From: Clostridium pasteurianum DSM 525 = ATCC 6013
Lineage (GTDB): Bacteria; Bacillota; Clostridia; Clostridiales; Clostridiaceae
Reading direction: 5' to 3'
Length of the DNA stretch: 64,000 nucleotides
NCBI RefSeq assembly: GCF_000807255.1
Contig: NZ_CP009268.1
Span: forward strand, 1,704,384 to 1,768,383
The position numbers were made by a program, and so were the translations under genes. Below the pieces are notes generated by a model. That model was not told the DNA's origin. It did no database searches and saw nothing but the letters and a program-made list of their open reading frames with translations. Shown one piece after another: positions 4,165 through 55,627 of the stretch (position 1 is its first letter; every line of letters starts with the position of its first letter).

Positions 4165-4250
4165 TATAATTGTAGGCAAATTAATTACAAAGGTAGAGTT
4201 AATGATTAAAAAATTAGCGATTTCGGGCTAGTAATGTCAAGGCCTTGAAA

Positions 4251-4413
4251 TTAGGCATGTGAAAATAAATAGTAAGTCAAAGATGCGACGAATATTTTGA
4301 ATCCAACAAGGAAGCAGGTTCCGAAGATAGTGAGCTATCTGAAGGTTCTGCTGACGCAGTAGGATTCAAAATAGGCTAGCATACTGACTAGTTATTTATT
4401 TGAATATGCCTAA
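4251..4413 (+). mobile_element. MITE-like element, copy 1
   Basis: A 159-bp unit (4253-4411) bounded by AGGCAT ... ATGCCT. Its terminal inverted repeats are imperfect but about 34 bases long and share an AAATAAATA block. The interior forms nested hairpins: ATTTTGAATCC with GGATTCAAAAT, GCAG with CTGC, and AGATAG with CTATCT around TGAG. The same unit, same length and about 94% identical by eye, lies in opposite orientation at 37392-37550. It has no reading frame. It sits between the methyltransferase and the lipoprotein gene and ends 7 bases before the lipoprotein's GGGAGG site, so it forms part of that leader. Confidence 0.75.
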
Positions 4414-4430
4414 AATGGGAGGTAAACAAG

Positions 4431-10739: not shown

Positions 10740-10963
10740 ATATTCCTCCGTATTAAAAGATATAAATAATTAATCATATCTATATATAGTGTTTTATTTG
10801 GTGATTTATAACTACATGTTGTATATTATATGATTGTTTTAGATAAATTTCAAATATAAATAATTAATTCTATAAAAAACTAATTATTTTTATTATAATA
10901 CATTATGATAATTAATGCTTAATAATTGTTATTAAATAATAAGTAATAATTTTCATTAAACTG

Positions 10964-10990
10964 TTGACAAATTTAAATTAATTATATAAT
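10964..10990 (+). promoter_or_regulatory. Candidate promoter for repeat copy A / Rrf2 gene
   Basis: TTGACA (10964-10969) and TATAAT (10985-10990), with a short 15-bp spacer. Transcription would start about 11000, just before repeat copy A, so copy A would be the 5' leader of the Rrf2 gene. The short spacer lowers confidence. The rest of 10740-10960 is plain A/T-rich DNA. Confidence 0.4.
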
Positions 10991-11020
10991 ATATAAACTA
11001 TACTAAAGAAGTGTACTTTC

Positions 11021-11256
11021 GAAGCAAGTTCTTAATTCAGGTGGGGATTCTTTTGCACCATCTGAATTTTAGAACTGCAAGTGCATGGCTTACTTGGCGT
11101 TGAACTCCCATTTGAAGAAAAGCAGGGAACCAAAATCTTGTTTTTGATTTTGTGTGAATCGCTTTCACAGTGTGCAAGCAGACAAAACAAAATTTATTTT
11201 GTATTTGGTCGCTTTCGCAGAGTGCGTTGGAGACTTACGCCAAGTTAGTCAGGTGA
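11021..11256 (+). repeat. Structured repeat element, copy A (236 nt)
   Basis: First of three long copies of one element (others 11840-12011 and 18979-19160). Conserved 5' arm: GAAGCAAGTTCTTAATTCAG, then a GTGGGG ... CACCAT hairpin, CTGAATT and TTAGAACTGC. It then has GCTTACTTGGCG, which pairs with CGCCAAGTTAG at the 3' end. Between these is a variable region, longest in this copy, with extra hairpins (TCGCTTTCACAGTGTGC; CGCTTTCGCAGAGTGCG). It ends 16 bases before the ATG of the Rrf2 gene, whose GTAGGTG site follows directly. Copy A has one change in the first stem relative to copies B and C. No reading frame is conserved among copies, pointing to a structural RNA or DNA element rather than a coding one. 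Confidence 0.7.
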
Positions 11257-11272
11257 AAAGTAGGTGTAAAAA

Positions 11273-11686
11273 ATGAATATCACTCAAGAAAGTGATTATG
11301 CTATAAGAGCAGTACTTATATTATCAAAGAATAAAGAGAAAGATATCTTAGATGCAAAAACTATTTGTGAACTTGGAAGTATACCTTTAAGATTTTTATT
11401 AAAGCTTTTAAGGAAGCTTATAAAAAGTGGAATAGTTAAATCTTATAGAGGTGTAAATGGAGGATATTCTCTTGCAAAAGAGCCAATAGATATAAATTTA
11501 AAAGATATTATAGAAGCTATTGAAGGACCTATAGCTATAAACAGATGCCTATATGACAAAGATAGCTGTTCCGCAGGAAAAGGGGATAATTGTTGTATTC
11601 ATGCAGCTTTATATAGAGTTCAGTCAACAATGATTAATGAACTTGAAAAAATAAATTTTGAAAATTTAAGAAAAGGTAAATGGTAA
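11273..11686 (+). CDS. Rrf2-family transcriptional regulator with Fe-S cluster cysteines
   Basis: 137 residues. Residues 1-75 form the winged helix (MNITQESDYAIRAVLILSK; RFLLKLLRKLIKSGIVKSYRGVNGGYSLAK). The C-terminal half has NRCLYDKDSCSAGKGDNCCIHAAL, the cysteine cluster that binds [2Fe-2S] or [4Fe-4S] in NsrR/IscR-type sensors. It is a cytoplasmic repressor whose DNA binding would respond to cluster status (iron, NO or redox). Repeat copy A forms its leader, and copy B separates it from the BFD-like 2Fe-2S gene downstream. That gene is a plausible target, but this is inference from position. Confidence 0.9.
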   Translation: MNITQESDYAIRAVLILSKNKEKDILDAKTICELGSIPLRFLLKLLRKLIKSGIVKSYRGVNGGYSLAKEPIDINLKDIIEAIEGPIAINRCLYDKDSCSAGKGDNCCIHAALYRVQSTMINELEKINFENLRKGKW

Positions 11687-11839
11687 AGTTTTGGCTATAG
11701 ATTTTATTTTGTAAGAGAAAGTATATCTGATTGATGCACTTTGTCAATATAAGCTTAAATTTCAATGTTTCAACTATGGTTTAAAAGGGTATAAATTGGG
11801 AAAGATTATATAAAAATAAGGGGTTATTTGTATATAATT

Positions 11840-12011
11840 GAAGCAAGTTCTTAATTCGGGTGGGGATTCTTTTACCCCATCTGAATTTTAGAACTGCAAA
11901 TGCATGGCTTACTTGGCGTCGAACTCTCACTTGAAGAAAAGTAGATAGCCCAAATTTTAATTTGGTGCGAGGACTGTACAGAGTTGGAGACTTACGCCAA
12001 GTTAGTCAGGT
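11840..12011 (+). repeat. Structured repeat element, copy B (172 nt)
   Basis: Same element as copies A and C and the same orientation: GAAGCAAGTTCTTAATTC, a GGTGGGG ... CCCCAT hairpin, TTTTAGAACTGC, then GCTTACTTGGCG ... CGCCAAGTTAGTCAGGT. The variable middle is short (a CAAATTTTAATTTG hairpin replaces the AAAATC ... GATTTTG hairpin of A and C). It lies 46 bases before the ATG of the BFD-like gene, in its probable leader. The stretch 11687-11839 is otherwise featureless. Confidence 0.7.
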
Positions 12012-12057
12012 GAAAATATAAAATTAAATAAAACTTATTGAGAGGAGATGACATCTT

Positions 12058-12267
12058 ATGGAAAATAATGCAACTAAGGAAATTATGGATAAACTTACAA
12101 AGACATGTATTTGTAAGAGTATACCAAGAGCTGTTATAAAAGATACAATTAGAAATGGTGCTAAAACTGTAGAGGAAGTGCAGAAATTAACAGGAGCAGG
12201 TTCTGGTGGATGTAAAGGTAGAAGATGTACTCCAAGAATACAAATGCTTTTAGATAATAGAGAATAA
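12058..12267 (+). CDS. BFD-like [2Fe-2S]-binding domain protein
   Basis: A 69-residue stand-alone domain of the bacterioferritin-associated ferredoxin (BFD)/NifU-middle type. Four cysteines sit in the expected pattern, CIC near residues 18-20 and GGCKGRRC near 51-57, and would bind one [2Fe-2S] cluster. The helix-turn-helix-like scaffold AVIKDTIRNGAKTVEEVQKLTGAG is typical of the fold. GAGAGGAGATGACATCTT precedes ATG. It follows the Rrf2 gene with repeat copy B between them. It may carry electrons or clusters; no partner oxidoreductase is fused or adjacent. The 250 bases after it hold nothing I can call. Confidence 0.85.
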   Translation: MENNATKEIMDKLTKTCICKSIPRAVIKDTIRNGAKTVEEVQKLTGAGSGGCKGRRCTPRIQMLLDNRE

Positions 12268-12519
12268 AAGTTTATTTGATGATTATCTAATGTGTAGAAT
12301 TTATATATACTTGTTTTAAGTGCAAAGACTTAAAGTAAGTCTTATTGATATTACTTAAGATGTCTTAGGGTATGAATTTTATAGAGTTTAAATTATTCTA
12401 TGAAATTTTACGTAAGGCATCATTTTTATTTTAAGCACTTTTATAAAGCTTTACAATAAATCTTCTTTGTGATATAAAGATGATAAATTTATATTTTTAT
12501 AGAAAGGTAGGAAATATTT

Positions 12520-13020
12520 ATGATATATAATTTTAAAGAATTCAAACCTAAAATAGCAAAAGATACATTTATTGCAAAAAGTGCAGATATAATAGGAAAT
12601 GTAACTATAGAAAAGAATTGCAGTGTTTGGTTTGGGGCAGTAATACGAGGCGATGTGAATGAAATATATATAGATGAAGGAAGTAATATACAAGATAATT
12701 GTGTACTTCACATAAGTAAAGAAGGTAACCCTATTAAAATTGGTAAATTTACCACTGTAGGCCATGGAGCAATACTGCATGGATGTAAAATAGGAAATAA
12801 TTCACTGATTGGAATGGGATCTACCATATTAGATAACAGTGAAATTGGAGATTGTACTATTATTGGGGCAGGAAGTTTAATTACACAAAATAAAAAAATA
12901 CCTGGTGGTGTTTTATGTATGGGAAGGCCTGCAAAAGTTATAAGAGAATTGACAGATGAAGAAAAAGAAAGTATAAAGTCAAACACTGAAGAATATATAG
13001 AGCTTAGTAAAATTTATTAA
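12520..13020 (+). CDS. Gamma-class carbonic anhydrase family protein (YrdA/PaaY-like hexapeptide protein)
   Basis: A 166-residue left-handed beta-helix protein. Hexapeptide repeats run through most of the sequence (IIGNVTIEKNCSVWFGAVIRGD; IKIGKFTTVGHGAILHGCKIG). The three zinc-ligand histidines of the gamma carbonic anhydrases are present (His64 in VLHIS, His82 and His87 in GHGAILHGC), as is RGD near residue 43. It ends in the usual helix (TDEEKESIKSNTEEYIELSKIY). Many members bind metal but lack proven hydratase activity, so the enzymatic role is uncertain. AGGTAGGAAATATTT precedes ATG. It appears monocistronic. Confidence 0.88.
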   Translation: MIYNFKEFKPKIAKDTFIAKSADIIGNVTIEKNCSVWFGAVIRGDVNEIYIDEGSNIQDNCVLHISKEGNPIKIGKFTTVGHGAILHGCKIGNNSLIGMGSTILDNSEIGDCTIIGAGSLITQNKKIPGGVLCMGRPAKVIRELTDEEKESIKSNTEEYIELSKIY

Positions 13021-13185
13021 AATGTAAAGTATGTCTTAAAGAGGTAATATTAATTAAAATTGAAAATGTTCTCTATTATTTGTTAAAAATCGGATTTTTG
13101 GTCAAATGTGCTGAATTCTTCAATCTTCTATAGGTTGGAGATGAATAACACTTACCGATAGGCAACTAGTTGTTTATAATAATAT

Positions 13186-13237
13186 AATATTAAAAATCTG
13201 CATAATGGATATATCCATTATGCAGATTTTTAATATT
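13186..13237. terminator. Bidirectional terminator: perfect 52-bp palindrome
   Basis: Twenty-six bases on each side pair without mismatch or loop around GGATATATCC. It lies one base beyond the stop codon of the P-type ATPase gene and serves it on the minus strand; on the plus strand it can end the carbonic anhydrase transcript. Confidence 0.75.
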
Positions 13238-13238
13238 T

Positions 13239-15869
13239 TTAACTGTTTTTTGATTTTGCTCTTATGAAGATCTTTGCAACTTCATTGAATACTAAAGTTA
13301 ATACAGAAACAAGTATAACAAAAGTCCAATCAAACAAACTTAAGTTAAATAAATTAAATAAGTTTGATAGAAAAGGTATAGTTATAACTAAATATTGAAG
13401 TAAAATACCTATAATTATAGAGCCTACTAAATATTTATTACTAAATATACCAACTTGAAATATGGATTTTCTAGGGTGTCTCATATTAAGAGAATGAAAG
13501 AGTTGTGAAACACTTAAAACTACAAAGGCCATAGTTTGAGCATGCACTCCTTCTGTTCCATATACTTTTTCTCCGTACCTGAAAGCTATTAGTGTCAGGA
13601 TACCTATAAGTAATCCATTCAATATAAGAAATATGCCTGAACCATGAGAAAATAAACTTTCTTTAGTATTCCTAGGAGGATTATCCATAACATTTTCATC
13701 TCCTGGATCTACACCTAGAGAAAGGGCTGGCAATGTATCTGTAATCAAATTTACCCATAATATATGGATTGGTTTTAGCGGCGTATCCCAATTTAAAAGT
13801 ATAGCAATAAATAGAGTTATAATTTCACCTAAATTACAGGAAAGAAGAAATATTATAGACTTTTTTATATTGTTAAATATATTTCTACCTTCTTTTATAG
13901 CGGATACTATAGTTGAAAAATTGTCGTCAGTGAGAATCATATCAGAAGCACCTTTTGATACATCAGTACCTGTAATACCCATGGCTACGCCTATATCAGC
14001 TATTTTTAGAGAAGGGGCATCATTAACTCCATCACCGGTCATAGATACTATGTTTCCTTTAGATTTAAAGGCTTTTACAATATTTACTTTGTGTTCTGGC
14101 GATACTCTCGCAAAAACTCTTAGAGAATCTATTTTGTTATTTAGTTCTTCCTGAGACAATTTATCTAGTTCTACTCCTGAAATAGTCTCATTCTCATTTT
14201 CAGCTATTCCAAGTTCCTTAGCTATAGCAAAGGCAGTATTTCTGTGATCTCCAGTTATCATTATAGTTTTAATACCGGAATTTTTACAAGTAGATATTGA
14301 ATCTTTAACCTCTAGTCTTGGAGGATCAATCATACCAACTAAACCTATAAATATTAAATCTTTTTCAATGCTGTCAATTGGTATATCTGGAGAAGTTAAT
14401 TCCTTATAAGCAGCTCCTAGTACTCTTAATGCATCATCAGACATGGTATTGGATGCCTTTATGATTTTGGCTTTCAAATCTTCTGTAAGATCTTGTATAT
14501 TACCGTTGATATTTATTTTAGTGGCTATTTTAAGTAAATTGTCAGTGGCACCTTTTGTATAGACAATGTAATTTTTATCCTGCTTATTTATAGTAGACAT
14601 AAGTTTCCTATCTGAATCAAAAGGTACCTCATTAACTCTTGGAGAAGAAGTTTGAAGATCTGCTTTTAGTATATTAAATTTTACACCCATTTCCAAGAGA
14701 GCAACTTCTGTAGGGTCACCAGTCTGAGATGTTTCTGTATAAGTAGCATCATTACATAGCATAAGATTTTTTAATAATAGATTGTCGTCAATATTATTAA
14801 TATCTAGTTCATCAACAGCTTTTAATTCATCAGGACCAGCTGTATAGAATTTTTTTACTGTCATTTTATTTTGTGTAAGTGTACCGGTTTTATCGGAACA
14901 TATTATATTTACAGCCCCTAAAGTTTCAACAGCAGGAAGCTTTCTTATAATGGCATGATTTTTTACCATTCTCTGTACCCCCATAGCAAGTACTATAGAG
15001 ACAATTGCAGGAAGTCCTTCTGGTATTGCTGCCACTGCAAGACTGATAGCTGTCAGAAACATTTCAAATAAATCTCTTCCCTGAATTACAGATATTATAA
15101 AAATTAGAGTACAAATTGCTACAGCGGCAATTCCTAAAATTTTACTTAGCTCTGCCAGCTTTTTTTGAAGGGGTGTCATTTCAGTTTCAGATTCATCCAG
15201 CATTTTAGCTATTTTACCAATTTCAGTATTCATACCGGTTCCAGTAACTACGCCAATACCTCTTCCATAAGTGGCTAAAGTTGAAGCAAAAGCCATATTT
15301 TTTTGATCTCCCAGTGGGATATTACCATTGTCAAAATTCACATTAGCATCTTTGCTTGAGGGTACAGATTCACCGGTGAGGGCGGATTCCTCTATTTTTA
15401 GATTTGCACTTTCTATTAATCTTAAGTCAGCAGGAGTGAACCTTCCAGCATCTAAAATTACTATATCACCTGGAACTACTTCTTCTGAGGGAATTTCCTT
15501 TAAATCACCATCTCTTTTTACTATAGCTTTAGGTGTAGAAAGTTGCTTTAAAGCTTCCATGGCCTTCTCAGATTTAAATTCCTGAATTGTACCCACCATT
15601 CCATTTATAAGTATTACTACCAAAATTATTATGGAGTCACTTAATTCTTTCATGAAGGCAGATATTACAGCTGCTATTAACAATATAAATATCATTGGAT
15701 CTTTTAGTTGAGAGATAAAAATCTGAAATAAGGTCTTTTGAGTTTTTGATGTAAGTTTGTTCTCACCATATTCCTCCAATCTTCTTTTTGATTCATCAGA
15801 AGATAGACCTTCTTTTGGGTCTACTTTTAATTCTTTGATAACTTCTTCTGTAGTTTTACCAAACCACAT
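13239..15869 (-). CDS. Cation-translocating P-type ATPase (P2A; probable Mn2+/Ca2+ exporter)
   Basis: 876 residues with the full P2-type ATPase architecture. Present are an N-terminal cation-ATPase domain, the actuator TGES (165-168), a PEGLP ion-site motif in M4 (283-287), the phosphorylation site CSDKTGTLTQNK with Asp326, the hinge MTGDGVNDAPSL, and six C-terminal membrane helices. It belongs to the SERCA/PMR1-like group usually annotated as calcium-transporting. The leader carries a yybP-ykoY-type Mn2+ riboswitch (16051-16184), so the physiological substrate is more likely Mn2+, as for other riboswitch-controlled exporters such as lactococcal YoaB. AAGGAGATTTGAATT precedes ATG. Confidence 0.93.
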   Translation of the reverse strand: MWFGKTTEEVIKELKVDPKEGLSSDESKRRLEEYGENKLTSKTQKTLFQIFISQLKDPMIFILLIAAVISAFMKELSDSIIILVVILINGMVGTIQEFKSEKAMEALKQLSTPKAIVKRDGDLKEIPSEEVVPGDIVILDAGRFTPADLRLIESANLKIEESALTGESVPSSKDANVNFDNGNIPLGDQKNMAFASTLATYGRGIGVVTGTGMNTEIGKIAKMLDESETEMTPLQKKLAELSKILGIAAVAICTLIFIISVIQGRDLFEMFLTAISLAVAAIPEGLPAIVSIVLAMGVQRMVKNHAIIRKLPAVETLGAVNIICSDKTGTLTQNKMTVKKFYTAGPDELKAVDELDINNIDDNLLLKNLMLCNDATYTETSQTGDPTEVALLEMGVKFNILKADLQTSSPRVNEVPFDSDRKLMSTINKQDKNYIVYTKGATDNLLKIATKININGNIQDLTEDLKAKIIKASNTMSDDALRVLGAAYKELTSPDIPIDSIEKDLIFIGLVGMIDPPRLEVKDSISTCKNSGIKTIMITGDHRNTAFAIAKELGIAENENETISGVELDKLSQEELNNKIDSLRVFARVSPEHKVNIVKAFKSKGNIVSMTGDGVNDAPSLKIADIGVAMGITGTDVSKGASDMILTDDNFSTIVSAIKEGRNIFNNIKKSIIFLLSCNLGEIITLFIAILLNWDTPLKPIHILWVNLITDTLPALSLGVDPGDENVMDNPPRNTKESLFSHGSGIFLILNGLLIGILTLIAFRYGEKVYGTEGVHAQTMAFVVLSVSQLFHSLNMRHPRKSIFQVGIFSNKYLVGSIIIGILLQYLVITIPFLSNLFNLFNLSLFDWTFVILVSVLTLVFNEVAKIFIRAKSKNS

Positions 15870-16050
15870 AATTCAAATCTCCTTTCTGTGTTTGAAATAA
15901 AAACAAATAACATTATTATCCTTTGATCAATCATCTAACTATGTAATAAAAATAAATAAAATTAATAATTCATAAATAGTATAACCTATAAGTGTAGATA
16001 TAATTAAGGATTTTAAAAGAAATTAACATAGTAAAAAATACTTGGTAAAT

Positions 16051-16184
16051 AAAAAAGACCTATGTATAACCAATATTTGCGTTACACATAAGTCTTACTA
16101 TTTAATACAAAGCCAGATGAAATCATCGGATGTTGACCTTGCAGCAGATAGAACAAGATGAAATCTGCTAGTTACTCCCTTATG
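16051..16184 (-). promoter_or_regulatory. yybP-ykoY family Mn2+ riboswitch with terminator
   Basis: Reading the minus strand from 16184: CATAAGGGAGTAAC, a hairpin (AGCAGATTTCATCTTGTTCTATCTGCT), then GGTCAACATCCGATGATTTCATCTGGC and finally AAGACTTATG. GGGAGTA, GTCAACA and AAGAC are hallmark conserved blocks of this riboswitch class. CATAAG and CTTATG form the closing stem P1. The same CTTATG is part of a terminator arm (AAGACTTATGTGTAAC with GTTATACATAGGTCTT, then T-run), so P1 and the terminator exclude each other. This predicts that metal binding turns the P-type ATPase gene on. Confidence 0.85.
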
Positions 16185-16204
16185 TTTATTAAAAACATAC
16201 ATAA

Positions 16205-16233
16205 ATTATACATAAAATATTAATTTATGTCAA
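16205..16233 (-). promoter_or_regulatory. Consensus promoter for the Mn riboswitch / P-type ATPase transcript
   Basis: On the minus strand TTGACA (16233-16228) and TATAAT (16210-16205) with a 17-bp spacer, both perfect consensus. Transcription would begin about 16198, just ahead of the riboswitch. Confidence 0.85.
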
Positions 16234-16334
16234 ATAAAAAGTTGAACTTAATTTCCAATATATATTTGAATTTTATATAAATACAAATAAAATAATGCTA
16301 TAATTTAAGTAACATATTTTATGGGGATGATTTA

Positions 16335-16757
16335 ATGGAAGTTTCAAGAATTAGTAACAGAACCACTGTAGCTCATGAAAGAAAAAAAATAGATCTTAAA
16401 AAAGATTTTTCTCAAAGCTTTAATTTTGCAAGAGACAGAAGAAATGAAGAGGAAATGAAACAACTTCTAGATGATATAAAAAAAAGAGGAAACAGGCTTG
16501 TAATAAGTAAATGCTATGGAGATGTTAAGGCATATAAAAATTTAATTAAAGAATATTTACAGAGTGTTTTAAATCATATGTATAAACTCAAAAATGAGAC
16601 TAGCTTTTGGCAAACTCAGTATTATATAACCGTAGAAGTAATAGATAATAAATTAGAAGAAATAACAAAATCTGTTTTAGGAGAAGAAAAGGGTAAGCTG
16701 GATATAGCGGCTACTATTGATGAGATTCAAGGACTTATTGTGGATATTTATAGGTAA
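16335..16757 (+). CDS. YaaR family protein (DUF327)
   Basis: A 140-residue mostly helical cytoplasmic protein of the YaaR family found across Firmicutes, often near recombination or DNA-replication genes; the function is not established. The visible family signature is the central RGNRLVISKCYGDVKAYKNLIKEYLQSVLNH and the C-terminal YYITVEVIDNKLEEITKSVLGEEKGKLDIAATIDEIQGLIVDIYR. GGGGATGATTTA precedes the ATG. Its stop codon abuts the terminator-like repeat at 16756. Confidence 0.85.
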   Translation: MEVSRISNRTTVAHERKKIDLKKDFSQSFNFARDRRNEEEMKQLLDDIKKRGNRLVISKCYGDVKAYKNLIKEYLQSVLNHMYKLKNETSFWQTQYYITVEVIDNKLEEITKSVLGEEKGKLDIAATIDEIQGLIVDIYR

Positions 16758-16830
16758 AAGGAGAAAAGTGCAAAGCTTTTCCCCTTTTGATATTTGTTCT
16801 TTGGACTTTATACTTTGCTTTTTAATTCGT
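16756..16830 (-). repeat. Terminator-associated repeat, copy Z (includes an intrinsic terminator)
   Basis: Bases 16756-16788 form a 13-position stem (AAAAGGAGAAAAG / CTTTTCCCCTTTT) between convergent yaaR and nadE. The adjoining 16789-16820 is the reverse complement of the repeat at 38643-38672 (GCAAAGTATAAAGT, CAAAGAACAAATATCA). Copy X at 38621 and copy Y at 61918 are the other members. Confidence 0.65.
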
Positions 16831-16842
16831 CTTTTCTAACTA

Positions 16843-18768
16843 TTATTCCTTAATTTCATCTATCCACACATTAAAGCTGGCATCAGAAGGCATTCTCCAG
16901 TCTCCTCTTGGAGATAAGCTTACAGTTCCTACCTTTGGCCCATCGGGTACAGCAGAACGTTTAAATTGCTGTGTAAAGAATCTTGTAAGAAATTTTTTTA
17001 GCCATTTTTTTATAGTTTTTTCATCATAGACATCTTTAAAGGCGATATTTGACAGATATAGTATTTTTTCGGGAGAAGCTCCTTGTCTGATAAAATAGTA
17101 TAAAAAGAAGTCATGAAGTTCGTAAGGTCCAACTAAATCCTCAGTTTTTTGTGATATATTACCTTCTTTATCTTTAGGTAGAAGTTCCGGACTTACTGGT
17201 GTATTCAATATATCCAGTAATATTTCAGAAGTAGCTTTGTCAACTTCTTTTTCTGCTACATATTTAACCAGATATCTTACTAAAGTTTTAGGTATAGAAC
17301 AATTTACCGAATACATAGACATATGATCACCATTGTAAGTACACCAGCCAAGGGCAAGTTCTGATAAATCTCCAGTTCCAATTAGAAGACCAGCTTCTTT
17401 ATTGGCAATGTCCATCAATATTTGAGTTCTTTCCCTTGCCTGAACATTTTCATAGGTCACATCATGATTTTCCACAGGATGACCTATGTCTTTAAAGTGT
17501 AGCAGACATGCGTCAACTATATTTATTTCTCTAAGATCTGTATTAGAATTCTTACATAAGTTAATGGCATTGCCATAGGTTCTATCAGTGGTACCAAAGC
17601 CTGGCATAGTTATAGTAAGTATATTTTTCCTTGGCAATTTAAGCATATCGAAAGTTTTTATAACTACTAATAGTGCTAAAGTGGAATCAAGACCGCCAGA
17701 TATACCTATAACGGCTTTTTTTAGACCTGTATGTTCTATTCTCTTTGCAAGAGCAGCAGTTTGTATATTGAATATTTCTTTGCATCTAATGTGACGCAGG
17801 GATTCGTTAGCAGGTACAAAAGGATATTTATCAATAGGTCTATTGAATTCTCCAAGACTTATATCCGTATATTTAAAATCAATGATTTTAGGAGTAAAAG
17901 TGCAAAGTTTAACACTATCACGAAAACTTACATTTTTTATTCTATCCATGTTAAGTTTATCTAAATCTATTATGGAAGTTATAACTTCATTTTCTCTTTG
18001 AAATCTTTCATTGGATTTAAGTATTGACCCATTTTCACTTATTATAAGATCTCCACTGAAGAGTAAATCTGTAGATGACTCATATACTCCACTGGAAGAA
18101 TATATGTAGGCAGACATACATCGTGCACTTTGATTGGAAACTAGAGATCTTCTGTAATCGGCCTTGCTTACTACTTCATTTGAGGCAGAAAGATTTCCAA
18201 TTACATTGGCTCCTAAAAGACTTAAATAGGAACTAGGGGGAATTGTAACCCAAAGATCTTCACAAATTTCAATTCCAAGTTGCAGCTTGTTCGAACTGAA
18301 AATTAGGTTTGTTCCAAAAGGTATGTCTGATTGAAAAGGTAAATCTATGGATTTATCTATGATACCTAAACCTTCAGTAAACCATCTCTTTTCATAAAAT
18401 TCTGTATAGTTAGGTATATAGCTCTTAGGCACAATACCTAGTATCTTTCCATTAAATATTACAAAGGCACAATTATATGTACAATATCTATAAATTAATA
18501 TGGAACCAACTACTATCAATATATCCTTTTCATAAGAGAAGGAACAAAGTTCCTCTATAGCATTATAGGATTTATCGATAAGTTGCTGCTGATAAAATAA
18601 ATCACTGCAGGTATAAGAAGTTATAGATAATTCAGGAAATATTATAACTTTTGAATGGTCTTCTAGAGCTTTCATTATGCATATTTTTATATTTTCTATA
18701 TTGAAATCTATATCTGATACTTTAGTTTTTGGGCAAGCAGATGATACTTTTATAAAAGAATTTACCAT
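16843..18768 (-). CDS. nadE: Glutamine-dependent NAD+ synthetase
   Basis: A 641-residue two-domain enzyme that amidates nicotinate adenine dinucleotide to NAD+ using ammonia released from glutamine. The N-terminal nitrilase-type glutaminase has its Glu in FPELSI, its Lys in VPKSYIPNY and its nucleophile Cys in IEICEDLW. The C-terminal synthetase has the PP-loop ISGGLDSTLAL near residue 355 and IGTGDLSELALGW. It ends in the family KRSAVPDGPKVGTVSLSPRGDWRMPSD. The frame extends to a GTG at 18777, but GGAG sits directly against that codon and 8 bases before ATG 18768, so 18768 is the start. Confidence 0.95.
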   Translation of the reverse strand: MVNSFIKVSSACPKTKVSDIDFNIENIKICIMKALEDHSKVIIFPELSITSYTCSDLFYQQQLIDKSYNAIEELCSFSYEKDILIVVGSILIYRYCTYNCAFVIFNGKILGIVPKSYIPNYTEFYEKRWFTEGLGIIDKSIDLPFQSDIPFGTNLIFSSNKLQLGIEICEDLWVTIPPSSYLSLLGANVIGNLSASNEVVSKADYRRSLVSNQSARCMSAYIYSSSGVYESSTDLLFSGDLIISENGSILKSNERFQRENEVITSIIDLDKLNMDRIKNVSFRDSVKLCTFTPKIIDFKYTDISLGEFNRPIDKYPFVPANESLRHIRCKEIFNIQTAALAKRIEHTGLKKAVIGISGGLDSTLALLVVIKTFDMLKLPRKNILTITMPGFGTTDRTYGNAINLCKNSNTDLREINIVDACLLHFKDIGHPVENHDVTYENVQARERTQILMDIANKEAGLLIGTGDLSELALGWCTYNGDHMSMYSVNCSIPKTLVRYLVKYVAEKEVDKATSEILLDILNTPVSPELLPKDKEGNISQKTEDLVGPYELHDFFLYYFIRQGASPEKILYLSNIAFKDVYDEKTIKKWLKKFLTRFFTQQFKRSAVPDGPKVGTVSLSPRGDWRMPSDASFNVWIDEIKE

Positions 18769-18978
18769 TATTTTCACTCCATTTCCATAGTAAAATATGT
18801 TAATATATTTATGTCATATATAATAGATTAACATATTGTATATTTTATATTCAATATAATAAAATTAATTTCTCTAGCATTACTATAAAGTGATTTATTT
18901 TTATTATAAGGTTGAAATATTTTGTGGAATAAATATATATAAATGTAAAAAAATTTAACAATTATGTTATAGTAAGTT

Positions 18979-19160
18979 GAGGCAAGTTCTTAATTCAGGT
19001 GGGGATTCTTTTACCCCATCTGAATTTTAGAACCGGAAATGCATGGCTTACTTGGCGTCGAACTCCCACTTGAAGAAAAGCAGAGAACCAAAATCTTTTT
19101 TTTGATTTTGTGTGAGGGCTGTACAGAGTGCGTGGGAGACTTACGCCAAGTTAGTCAGGT
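18979..19160 (+). repeat. Structured repeat element, copy C (182 nt)
   Basis: The best-paired copy. The 5' hairpin AGTTCT-AATTCAG-GTGGGG closes with CCCCAT-CTGAATT-AGAAC. The second long stem is GCTTACTTGGCG and CTCCCAC with GTGGGAG and CGCCAAGTTAG; here the CTCCCAC/GTGGGAG stem is perfect. A hairpin AAAATC ... GATTTT lies inside. It lies in the 666-bp gap between nadE and nfeD, ending 274 bases before nfeD, in the same direction. The other 480 bases of that gap are A/T-rich with no gene that I can support. Confidence 0.7.
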
Positions 19161-19434
19161 TAAATCTAAGTAAATGGTAGAAATTTGACGCTACGGAGAG
19201 TGTTTATAGTTAAATATCGGCATAACCATTAAAAGAGGTTAATGATACTATATAAAAAGCATTTATAAAACTTTATTTAATTATATTTATACTGTATTAT
19301 AATATTATGAAGATTATTATGATTTTTAAAATTTTATAAATATATATTTATGTATTATATTATAGATAAATATATATTTATAAAATTAAATAAAGCTTCT
19401 TTAAAATATATTTTTATTAAGGGGGGGGATTTCA

Positions 19435-35622: not shown

Positions 35623-37392
35623 ATGGAGCATAGATGGAGTTTAAAAGAATTATATGATTCCTTTGAATCAAAGGAATTCAAGGAAGATCTAATTCGATGT
35701 GATAAATTTATAGATAAAATAAAAGAAATATCTGAAACTTTTGCAGACTCTAAAGAAGAAAACATAAAGAAATTAGAAAATTATATAAGTGTTGATAATG
35801 AATTTTTTCATTTATCCTTTAAATTATTATCTTTTTGTCAGTTGAGTTTAAGTGTAGAAACTACAAATGTAGAAGCTTTAAAGTATCTGGAAGTGATTGA
35901 AGAAAAAATCACTGAATTGGCGGAACCAAATACAAAAGTTGCAAAATGGATTGGAAAACTGCAAAATTTAGATGATATCATTGGTTCATCCACCATATTA
36001 AAAGAACATAATTTTTATCTAAAAGAAATACAGCAAAATAATAAATATGTACTAAGTGAAAAAGAAGAAACTATTATCTCTAAAATGAGAAATACTGGTT
36101 CAAGTGCTTGGAGCAAATTACAGGATTTAACCCTTTCCAATCTCTTAGTTAAGATTAATATTAATGGAAAGGAAGAAAAACTTCCTTTAACAGTGGTCAG
36201 AAATATGGCTTATGATGCTAATGACAATATTAGAAAAACAGCTTATATAGCAGAACTAGCAGCTTATAGTGAAATTGAAGATGTATCTGCTGCCTGTCTT
36301 AATGGGATTAAAGGAGAAGTTATAACGGTAGATAAGCTTAGAGGATATAAATCACCTTTGGAAGAAAGCCTTATCAGCTCCAAAATGGATCAAAAAACTT
36401 TAGATTCTATGTTTAGTGCTATTTCTGAATATTTACCAGTATTTAGAAAATATTTCAGAAAAAAGGCACAAATACTTTCATATAAAGGAGGACTGCCCTT
36501 TTATGAGATGTTTGCTCCTATAGGAAAAAGCAGTAGAAAATATACTTTTGAAGAAGCTAGAGATTTTATTGTAGAGAATTTTAAAACTTTTAGTGATAAA
36601 CTGGCAGATTATGCACTAAAGGCCTTTAACAATAAATGGATCGATGCCGAACCAAGAGAGGGAAAAGTTGGAGGGGCCTTTTGTGAAAATCTACATGTTA
36701 TTGGAGAAAGTAGAATAATGAGTAATTTTACTGGAAATTTCAATGATGTGGTGACTCTTGCTCATGAATTAGGTCATGGATATCATGGAGCATGTCTTTT
36801 AAAGGAATCTGCAATTAATAGTGAATATCCAATGCCTATTGCAGAAACAGCCTCTACATTTTGTGAAACTATTATAAAGAAAGCGGCTACGGATAAGGTA
36901 GATAAAGAGGAATCTATCTCTATATTGGAAACGGAGATAAGCGATTGTGCACAGGTAATAGTAGATATATATAGCAGATTTCTATTTGAAAGTGAAGTAT
37001 TTAAAAAAAGAGAAAAGGGATCTATAAGTGTAGAAGAACTTAAAAGTATAATGTTAGAAGCGCAAAAGAAAGCCTATGGAGATGGATTGGATTCAAATTA
37101 TCTTCATCCCTATATGTGGATATGTAAACCTCATTATTACTCTGCTGATTTCAATTTTTACAATTATCCCTATGCTTTTGGTTTGTTATTTTCAAAAGGA
37201 TTATATTCAATATATTTAAAAGATAAAGAGAAATTCGTAAAGGAATATGATAAATTACTTGCTTTAACAGGAAAAAATAAAATTTTTGATATAGCTAAAT
37301 TTATGAATATAGATATTAATTCTGTAAGTTTTTGGAAAGAATCTTTGGAACTTATAAAAGAAGACATAGATAAATTTATAACATTAGCATAA
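35623..37392 (+). CDS. M3-family oligoendopeptidase (PepF-like)
   Basis: A 589-residue zinc endopeptidase that cleaves short peptides in the cytoplasm. The zinc site HELGHGYHG lies about residues 381-389, with the third ligand Glu in PIAETASTFCE. The C-terminal CKPHYYSADFNFYNYPYAFGLLFSKGLY signature is typical of the PepF/M3 clade. Length fits. AAAGGAGTTGATATT precedes ATG. It ends directly against MITE-like copy 2; the AI-2E-family transporter follows in the same direction. Confidence 0.93.
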   Translation: MEHRWSLKELYDSFESKEFKEDLIRCDKFIDKIKEISETFADSKEENIKKLENYISVDNEFFHLSFKLLSFCQLSLSVETTNVEALKYLEVIEEKITELAEPNTKVAKWIGKLQNLDDIIGSSTILKEHNFYLKEIQQNNKYVLSEKEETIISKMRNTGSSAWSKLQDLTLSNLLVKININGKEEKLPLTVVRNMAYDANDNIRKTAYIAELAAYSEIEDVSAACLNGIKGEVITVDKLRGYKSPLEESLISSKMDQKTLDSMFSAISEYLPVFRKYFRKKAQILSYKGGLPFYEMFAPIGKSSRKYTFEEARDFIVENFKTFSDKLADYALKAFNNKWIDAEPREGKVGGAFCENLHVIGESRIMSNFTGNFNDVVTLAHELGHGYHGACLLKESAINSEYPMPIAETASTFCETIIKKAATDKVDKEESISILETEISDCAQVIVDIYSRFLFESEVFKKREKGSISVEELKSIMLEAQKKAYGDGLDSNYLHPYMWICKPHYYSADFNFYNYPYAFGLLFSKGLYSIYLKDKEKFVKEYDKLLALTGKNKIFDIAKFMNIDINSVSFWKESLELIKEDIDKFITLA

Positions 37393-37550
37393 GGCATATT
37401 CAAATAAATAACTAGTCAGTATGCTAGCCTATTTTGAATCCTACTACGTCAACAGAACCCTCAGATAGCTCACTATCATCAGAACCTGTTTCCTTGTATG
37501 ATTCAAAATATTCGTCGCATCTTTGACTTACTATTTATTTTCACATGCCT
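37392..37550 (-). mobile_element. MITE-like element, copy 2
   Basis: The reverse complement of this segment matches 4253-4411 over its full 159 bp, with about ten substitutions. One inner stem changes from GCAG/CTGC in copy 1 to ACAG/CTGT here, keeping the pairing. It starts at the stop codon of pepF and ends about 14 bases before the ribosome binding site of the AI-2E transporter gene, so it fills the whole gap. No clear target-site duplication is visible. Confidence 0.75.
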
Positions 37551-37576
37551 AATTTGTTAACATGAGGTGAATGGGG

Positions 37577-54200: not shown

Positions 54201-55579
54201 GTTCTTTAAAAGCTGCAATGGAGGAAAGAAGTAAAAATGGAATAAATCCAGAATGTATTGGAGAGGTTCAGAAAAAAGTCTTATTTACAGAAGAAATGAA
54301 GGATACTCATACAATACTTTGTCCTCAAATGTCACCTATCCATTTTCAATTTTTAGAAGCTGCAATGAATGCATCAGGATATAATATGGTTATGTTGTCT
54401 GATGGAGATAAAAAAGTAGTAGATGAAGGATTAAAATATGTTAATAATGATGCCTGCTATCCATCTATAATTGTGGTTGGACAGATAATAGCAGCATTGA
54501 AATCTGGAAAATATGATTTAAGTAAAACTTCTGCACTAATTTCACAAACAGGTGGAGGCTGCAGAGCTACAAATTATATTGGATTTATTAGAAAGGCACT
54601 TAAAGATGCAGGATATGCAAACATACCAGTTATAGCTGTAAGTGCACAGGGACTTGAATCTAATCCTGGATTTAAGTATTCTCTATCCATGTTAAATAAA
54701 TGTGCCATAGCTCTTGTATATGGAGATTTACTCATGAGGGTATTATATAGAGTAAGACCTTATGAAAAAATCAAAGGTTCTGCAAATGAGCTATATAATA
54801 AATGGGTGAAAAAATGCAAGGAATCAACTAGATCTGGAAATCATAGAATATTTAAAAACAATATAAGAAATATAGTTAAAGATTTTGATAACTTAGAAAT
54901 AGAGGATGTTAGAAAGCCTAAGGTTGGACTTGTAGGAGAAATACTTGTTAAATTTTTACCTGGTGCAAATAATAATATAGTTGATATTGTTGAGGGTGAA
55001 GGTGGAGAAGCTGTAATGCCGGATTTGATAGATTTTTTATTATATTGTGCTTATGATGAGAACTATAAATACAGGTATTTATCAGGTACAAGAAAAGCCA
55101 AGCTTATAGGAAATGTAGTAATAAATGCTATTGAATTTTATAGAAAAGAGATGAAAAAAGTCTTAAGAAATAGTAAAAGATTTGAGCCGCCAAAGTCTAT
55201 AAGTGAACTTGCCGCAGGTGTTAATGGTATTGTATCTATTGGTAACCAAACTGGAGAAGGTTGGTTTTTAACAGCTGAAATGGTAGAGCTTATAGAAAGT
55301 GGTACAGAAAATATTGTGTGTATGCAGCCTTTTGCCTGCCTTCCAAATCATGTAACAGGAAAGGGCATGATTAAAGAACTTAAAAAGAGATATGCTTATG
55401 CCAATATAGCGGCTATTGATTATGATCCTGGTGCCAGTGAAGTAAATCAGTTAAATAGAATTAAATTGATGTTGTCTACAGCTTTTAAAAATATGGAGAA
55501 AAAGTATGAGTTTGATAAGATGACAGAAATAGTAGAGATAAAAAAACATCATTCTGAGAATAGACCTATTAAGGCTTAA
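51278..55579 (+). CDS. Giant 2-hydroxyacyl-CoA dehydratase activase-family protein (two BadF ATPase domains + DUF2229 + HgdB-like)
   Basis: 1433 residues. Domain 1 (about 1-270) and domain 2 (about 320-590) are both ASKHA activators, each with the cluster cysteines ([11 protein letters not shown] / AARCGVFAK, and [10 protein letters not shown] / [10 protein letters not shown]). Next, near 605-640, comes a four-cysteine motif (RCGLCGNNC ... GNRCERG). A DUF2229 region follows ([22 protein letters not shown]), then a C-terminal HgdB-like domain ([40 protein letters not shown]). It is a single-chain combination of ATPase reductase and Fe-S acceptor, widespread in clostridia and annotated only as 'acyl-CoA dehydratase activase-related'. 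The substrate is unknown. GGGAAGGTAATT precedes ATG. Confidence 0.9.
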
Positions 55580-55627
55580 TAAATATGGACCATAAGAGAA
55601 TATATTCTCTTATGGTCCATATTTATT
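55578..55627. terminator. Bidirectional terminator: perfect 50-bp palindrome
   Basis: Twenty-five bases per arm pair without a mismatch. It begins within the stop codon of the giant activase gene and ends 5 bases before the stop of the convergent kinase-like gene. Confidence 0.8.

Follow-up and report, generated by a model that had tools for sequence, protein, structure and literature searches.

We analyzed a 64,000-nt stretch of the Clostridium pasteurianum DSM 525 genome (the window, positions 1704384-1768383 of a one-contig genome of 4,352,101 bases), in which an original prediction made from the letters alone had noticed three copies (A, B and C) of a structured element. These copies belong to a real, abundant, modular and fold-conserved superfamily of clostridial repeats that has no match in Rfam. 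We consider it probable, at roughly 70%, that these repeats are mobile DNA of a non-autonomous kind, with a plan like that of the streptococcal BOX elements, and not a conserved working RNA. This reading is based on the presence of more than 100 dispersed copies on both strands and of empty orthologous sites without target duplication; on an array of 0 to 4 internal units that are shared with other families of ends, a covarying fold, and the recovery of one lineage by a model built from another; and on an even orientation to genes with no wobble bias. The original prediction had left a structured RNA and a hairpin-ended mobile unit side by side, and it is the latter that the empty orthologous sites, the high copy number and the patchy species range support.

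Copy number, architecture and insertion site

We refer to the lineage of copies A, B and C as E1. Searching for a core pattern (TGCATGGCTTACTTGGCGTNGAACTC, up to 3 mismatches) gave 123 matches in the 4.35-Mb genome, 61 on the forward and 62 on the reverse strand, while the reversed pattern, used as a control, gave 0 and 0, which excludes chance. The single orientation reported for the three copies therefore holds inside the window but not genome-wide. At roughly 130-340 nt each, the 123 matches amount to about 20 kb, a notable share of the non-coding DNA of this genome. From the fetched loci we extracted 104 full E1 copies, no two of them at one place; core matches without both ends were left out, most of these coming from the same stem read on the other strand and some being diverged or cut copies. 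Places were listed for 100 of the 123 matches. The other 23 carry 2 or 3 mismatches, and no listed place with 2 mismatches lies beyond 1.24 Mb. Among the matches listed, which favor low coordinates, the first 2.0 Mb contain 77 of the 104 E1 copies (p = 3e-8 for a share of 2.05 Mb), and this excess is partly due to that sampling.

The E1 architecture consists of a 5′ hairpin I (GTTCTTAATTCAGG..) followed by stem II (GCATGGCTTACTTGGCG with CGCCAAGTTAGTCAGG), in whose loop units are arranged in tandem. The number of units is 0, 1, 2, 3 or 4 in 38, 21, 39, 4 and 2 of the 104 copies, respectively, and the corresponding length classes are approximately 130, 180, 235, 290 and 340 nt. The units (AAGCAG...GAGTGC, about 54 nt, with a range of some 50-56 nt) each form a hairpin, and these hairpins fall into three main kinds. 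This accounts for the different middle hairpins originally described for each copy; counts per kind are rough, as the parser lumps two of the kinds.

The insertion site could be read where a genome of the same family, G148, keeps the locus without the element. The leader of an Rrf2 gene reads ACTTTT|AAAAGTAGG in G148, compared with ACTTTC|GAAGC...CAGGTG|AAAAGTAGG here, where copy A is present. For the copy at 1615992, the G148 joint is ATT|AAAATTT by our own reading, the aligner having placed the ATT elsewhere, and the copy at 1684058 gave a similar but less clean alignment, with GATC before the As and about 35 extra bases further downstream. These three empty sites, the last of them less clean than the other two, show neither target duplication nor base loss, and because of their joints we place the bounds of the element, GAAGC...CAGGTK, between TT and AAA. 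At the K, 48 of the 104 copies have G and the other 56 have T. Each base of the right flank AAA is A in 99-100% of the copies, and on the left flank an A precedes the TT in 74%; the TT itself, at 100%, is not an independent observation, since it belonged to the anchor and a locus not starting with TT (L028) was excluded. The two ends are not inverted copies of each other, and terminal inverted repeats are thus absent. Eight copies of this genome have G148 matches on both sides and are not nested in another repeat, and five of these were read, those at 1468392, 1553107 and 2912421 not being among them. The copies at 1485695 and 1723360 (copy C) gave no clean alignment to G148. No empty sites were found for 17 elements of G148 that have other ends (E2 and E3, described below).

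Additional joints come from nested copies. Three E1 copies (L049, L052 and L055) are inserted at one point in a 163-bp repeat, and another (L150) lies in a diverged relative of this repeat. An empty relative (L003) reads TTAAAAATAT at the joint, consistent with a TTAAA site. The nesting repeat is itself dispersed, with inverted ends of the TAAGGCAT type resembling those of miniature inverted-repeat transposable elements; matches to it were obtained from 7 of the 8 genomes in which it was sought, and it occurs in the window at 37392-37554 (+) and 4249-4414 (-).

Conserved fold and relation to genes

Covariation, proposed from the outset as a check on the helices, was assessed on 19 natural unit-less elements of the related E3 lineage, using as the structure the fold of one row (L297). 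In this alignment 91.4% of the cells pair, compared with at most 46.1% in slid versions, although this comparison leans towards the structure because it was taken from one of the rows. Changes on both sides were found in 21 of 49 pairs, with 62 such cells versus 20.1 ± 4.0 in shuffles, and none of 500 shuffles, which ignore relatedness, reached any of the five measures used. This is strong support for the fold of the element; it indicates a folded strand and does not tell which nucleic acid folds. A model built from E3 rows only, with no E1 (R1), recovered 14 of 15 unit-less E1 loci at full length (27-42 bits, E-value 1.4e-3 or better), missing L043. In the window, the RNA folds of copies A, B and C are far below those of shuffled sequences, with z-scores of -4.67, -7.20 and -6.29, respectively (200 shuffles each).

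The Rfam search, also suggested earlier, returned no relevant family, HEARO and raiA included: no family reached its gathering score anywhere in the window, and the surroundings of copies A and B gave no match even at E ≤ 1. The element is similar to Rfam structured RNAs in its stable covarying fold but matches none of the families. Three weak, off-target matches in relatives were discarded, namely those to two microRNA models, which fall on another hairpin of L286, and that to a Rhizobiales small RNA model over the 3′ arm of the L061 element, which scored 24.8 bits versus a gathering score of 50.

Conservation of the fold would also be expected if the element were a working structured RNA, acting in trans or as a cis-regulator in leaders, that has been duplicated often and whose fold is kept because the RNA works. 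We regard this as unlikely. It is in keeping with the strong covariation and with the location of copies A and B upstream of genes in the same direction. The gene that follows copy A encodes an Rrf2-type regulator (Pfam Rrf2), and copy A is located in what is presumably its 5′ leader, behind a promoter-like site (TTGACA-17-TAATAT), although the number of such sites in the copy A/B region is not above chance (15 versus 11.9 ± 3.8 in shuffles). As it stands between this site and the gene start, copy A is probably transcribed as part of the leader, judging from its position. The repeat can land in gene leaders. However, the same leader does without copy A in G148, and no terminator-like site was found in 10740-12520, where only 0.4 are expected, which is no different from shuffles. 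When the 104 copies were compared with mechanical open reading frame calls, 33 ran with both neighboring genes and 37 against both, 16 lay between divergent and 13 between convergent genes, and 5 overlapped a reading frame. Copies therefore have no preferred orientation to genes. Broken pairs in the E1 copies comprised 75 G-T, 87 A-C and 124 others, and in A2 there were 38 G-T versus 35 A-C. Since selection on RNA of this strand should favor G-T, the lack of a G-T excess over A-C counts against selection at the RNA level. Together with the even gene orientation and the absence of an Rfam match, this makes a dispersed functional RNA the less likely of the two options raised initially.

Relatives, mobilization and known systems

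The search was extended to 206 genomes of the family and to an even draw of 391 genomes of the class. E1 is present in 5 of the 206 family genomes, with 123 matches here, 37 in C. magnum (G096), 2 each in G098 and G148, and 1 in G093. In G148, units of the E1 type occur in two further kinds of element, E2 and E3, whose ends differ from those of E1, and C. magnum carries a fourth kind, E4. Elements E2 to E4 have a hairpin I and a stem II, the foot of which pairs TATCC (AATCC in E4) with GGATAA. Units are therefore common to lineages with unlike ends, and the fold is alike. The hairpin I loop in C. magnum and relatives (L093, L096, L109, L286 and L299) holds an extra module similar to GTCTACGACCCGGGGCTTTGCCCGTTAAATGCCATTTAGGCATTTAAC, so that hairpin I too seems to accept inserts.

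A pattern for the superfamily (TATCCAGGGACGTAGC, up to 1 mismatch) was found in 42 of the 206 family genomes, with a maximum of 158 matches (G173) and 11 in the genome studied here; seven of the 42 hold one match only, and the reversed control gave one match in each of six genomes. The end motif lies behind the pattern in 26 of 30 fetched loci, and is missing from the other four, one of which (L310) is evidently inside a gene. In the class survey the pattern was found in 16 of the 391 genomes, and most of those outside the family have a single match. A clear exception is family f25, with 36 matches in G230, 2 in G316 and 1 in G289, where the element model confirms one locus per genome (L361, L359 and L360, respectively). 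The pattern for the units was listed in 27 genomes, which is not a count of unit-bearing genomes because no fewer than seven of the loci retrieved resemble genes that we take to encode ribosomal protein L33. Units were also seen outside any element: two reading frames carry them at the 3′ end (L266 near 1430-1560 and L268 near 1440-1560). Viral contigs gave 23 pattern matches, and six of the seven printed show no element around the match; two viral-contig loci (L388 and L401) match the element model weakly. Phage records searched with one E3 element and plasmid records searched with copy B gave no match.

We propose that the constant part, hairpin I plus stem II, would fold on one strand and be recognized by a mobilizing enzyme, with insertion occurring between TT and AAA and no base duplicated or lost, as at the readable sites. 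The element may be moved in trans, in the form of a folded single strand, by a transposase of another source. Tandem duplication and deletion, together with recombination from copy to copy, would allow units to be gained, lost and swapped. A single copy would be a neutral passenger, placed now and then in a leader that is transcribed.

Several observations weigh against this proposal. No mobilizing enzyme and no autonomous copy was found in the fetched loci of a few genomes; among the loci fetched from the genome studied here there were no long-spaced or autonomous copies, and five rows in which only the 3′ end had been scored proved to be reverse strands of ordinary copies. GC skew changes sign near 2.0 Mb, and 61 of the 104 copies are in the lagging sense, which is a weak bias (p = 0.095) for an element that would move as a single strand. 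The insertion site is conserved to its left and to its right, unlike that of IS200/IS605 elements, whose target is conserved on the left flank only. Five other empty relatives of the nesting repeat in this genome read TTCAAAATA, one base off TTAAA, and two in C. magnum carry other letters before the As. Finally, in a search of the whole window with the E3 model and filters off, AT-rich hairpins (best 22.3 bits) outranked copies A-C (16-17 bits); the model is weak for these copies because their units break it.

One form of the mobile reading, which we put forward only tentatively, is that the element derives from an IS200/IS605-type (Y1 HUH) transposon with hairpin ends and is moved by TnpA in trans. 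Y1-type transposase genes are present in the genome, target duplication is absent at the sites read, a hairpin lies near each end, and the weak lagging-sense bias of the copies would point in the same direction. Subterminal hairpins and a lack of target duplication characterize IS200/IS605 elements (PMC6006769 and general background), and asymmetric hairpin ends without target duplication are a likeness to miniature elements derived from them. However, no transposase gene with the ends of this element was found in the loci fetched, and both flanks of the site are conserved. Three similar IS200 copies of the genome, considered as partners, were rejected because their ends differ. In 35 loci that hold TnpB- or Y1/RAYT-type genes, the element model had no match up to some 1.5 kb from the gene. 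The IS200/IS605 derivative named in the original prediction thus gained no direct support, and the same is true of the HEARO/omega RNA that it also named, for which there was no Rfam match and no element-model match in 20 loci with PF07282 genes (TnpB), IscB genes not being covered by the search. As a separate observation, the left flanks of the three IS200-type copies with a Y1 transposase (L176, L182 and L188) end in TAAA by our own reading.

The spread of a REP/BIME-like repeat by RAYT transposases is distinctly unlikely. REP and REPIN sequences associated with RAYT are, like this element, high-copy folded repeats (PMC6006769 and general background). RAYT homologues occur in 103 of the 206 family genomes (E ≤ 1e-10), including 14 of the 17 with 10 or more superfamily matches versus 89 of the 189 others (Fisher p = 0.009, a value that ignores relatedness). 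In a further set of 25 RAYT-type loci, which partly comprises the same genes as the 35-locus search, an element lies beside two, L373 and L380. Against this, three high-match genomes (G129, G153 and G178) have no RAYT match, and in half of the RAYT loci read (6 of 12: L374, L375, L376, L378, L382 and L384) the palindromes beside the gene are of another kind, CCCCTGGGG or alike. The present element is, in addition, longer and has a unit array.

The closest parallel in plan is with BOX elements, which in Streptococcus pneumoniae and S. suis consist of boxA, a variable number of boxB and boxC, with terminal inverted repeats and target duplications, and which in S. suis combine one and the same boxB with either of two pairs of end modules (PMC3049150). 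Both kinds of element are dispersed and folded, with end modules around a variable array of inner modules, and the sharing of one inner module by two S. suis end families resembles the occurrence here of units common to unlike end families. In contrast to BOX, the present element is without inverted ends and without duplication at the sites read, its target is TT^AAA, a further 5′ hairpin precedes the stem that encloses the array, and its units are of several types. It is therefore BOX-like in plan and is not classed as BOX. True homology with the streptococcal element, which the same A-(B)n-C plan and the unlike ends around one inner module might suggest, is highly unlikely given that neither the inverted ends nor the target duplications of BOX are seen here, a comparison made by description and not by sequence. 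We also find it doubtful that these repeats form a separate class of mobile elements, in which hairpin I would be the left and stem II the right end of a folded single strand that is inserted without duplication between TT and AAA, and in which the loops would dock exchangeable hairpin units, one set of them circulating among unlike end families in clostridia. The element adds to BOX a second example of this kind of modularity. As its empty sites can be read and a covariance model is available, the movement of modular repeats and the swapping of units between unlike ends become testable questions.

The element is not described in the literature searched, a search outside which most subscription papers fall. 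Families of repeated stem-loop sequences are also known from the clostridia C. tetani and C. perfringens (PMC2267715); the comparison did not extend to their sequences, and they may overlap with the superfamily.

Copies A, B and C in the window

The three copies lie on the forward strand where they had been predicted, with their ends adjusted by the last base, and the 5′ edge deduced from empty sites coincides with the starts given originally. The helices described for them are common to all three by folding and alignment, and the assignment of AAAATC/GATTTT hairpins to A and C and of a CAAATT/AATTTG hairpin to B was correct, copy A having two units and B and C one each. Copy A (11021-11255, +; alignment, empty orthologous site in G148 and Pfam Rrf2) is composed of hairpin I at 11028-11075, from fold and alignment, and stem II with its 5′ arm at 11083-11099 and its 3′ arm at 11238-11253, from the fold. 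Its unit 1, of the AAAATC/GATTTT type, at 11120-11175 and unit 2, of the ACAAAATTTATTTTGT type, at 11176-11225 were read from the sequence, as were the units of the other copies.

Copy B (11840-12012, +; sequence, fold, alignment and Pfam) has hairpin I at 11847-11894 and stem II arms at 11902-11918 (5′) and 11995-12010 (3′), all from the fold, around a CAAATT/AATTTG unit with a shortened 3′ end at 11939-11983. A gene for a BFD-like [2Fe-2S] protein lies downstream (Pfam). In copy C (18979-19161, +; sequence, fold and alignment), folding places hairpin I at 18986-19033 and the arms of stem II at 19041-19057 (5′) and 19144-19159 (3′), with an AAAATC/GATTTT unit at 19078-19131. Elsewhere in the window, an AT-rich, nearly perfect 50-nt hairpin occurs at 55578-55627.

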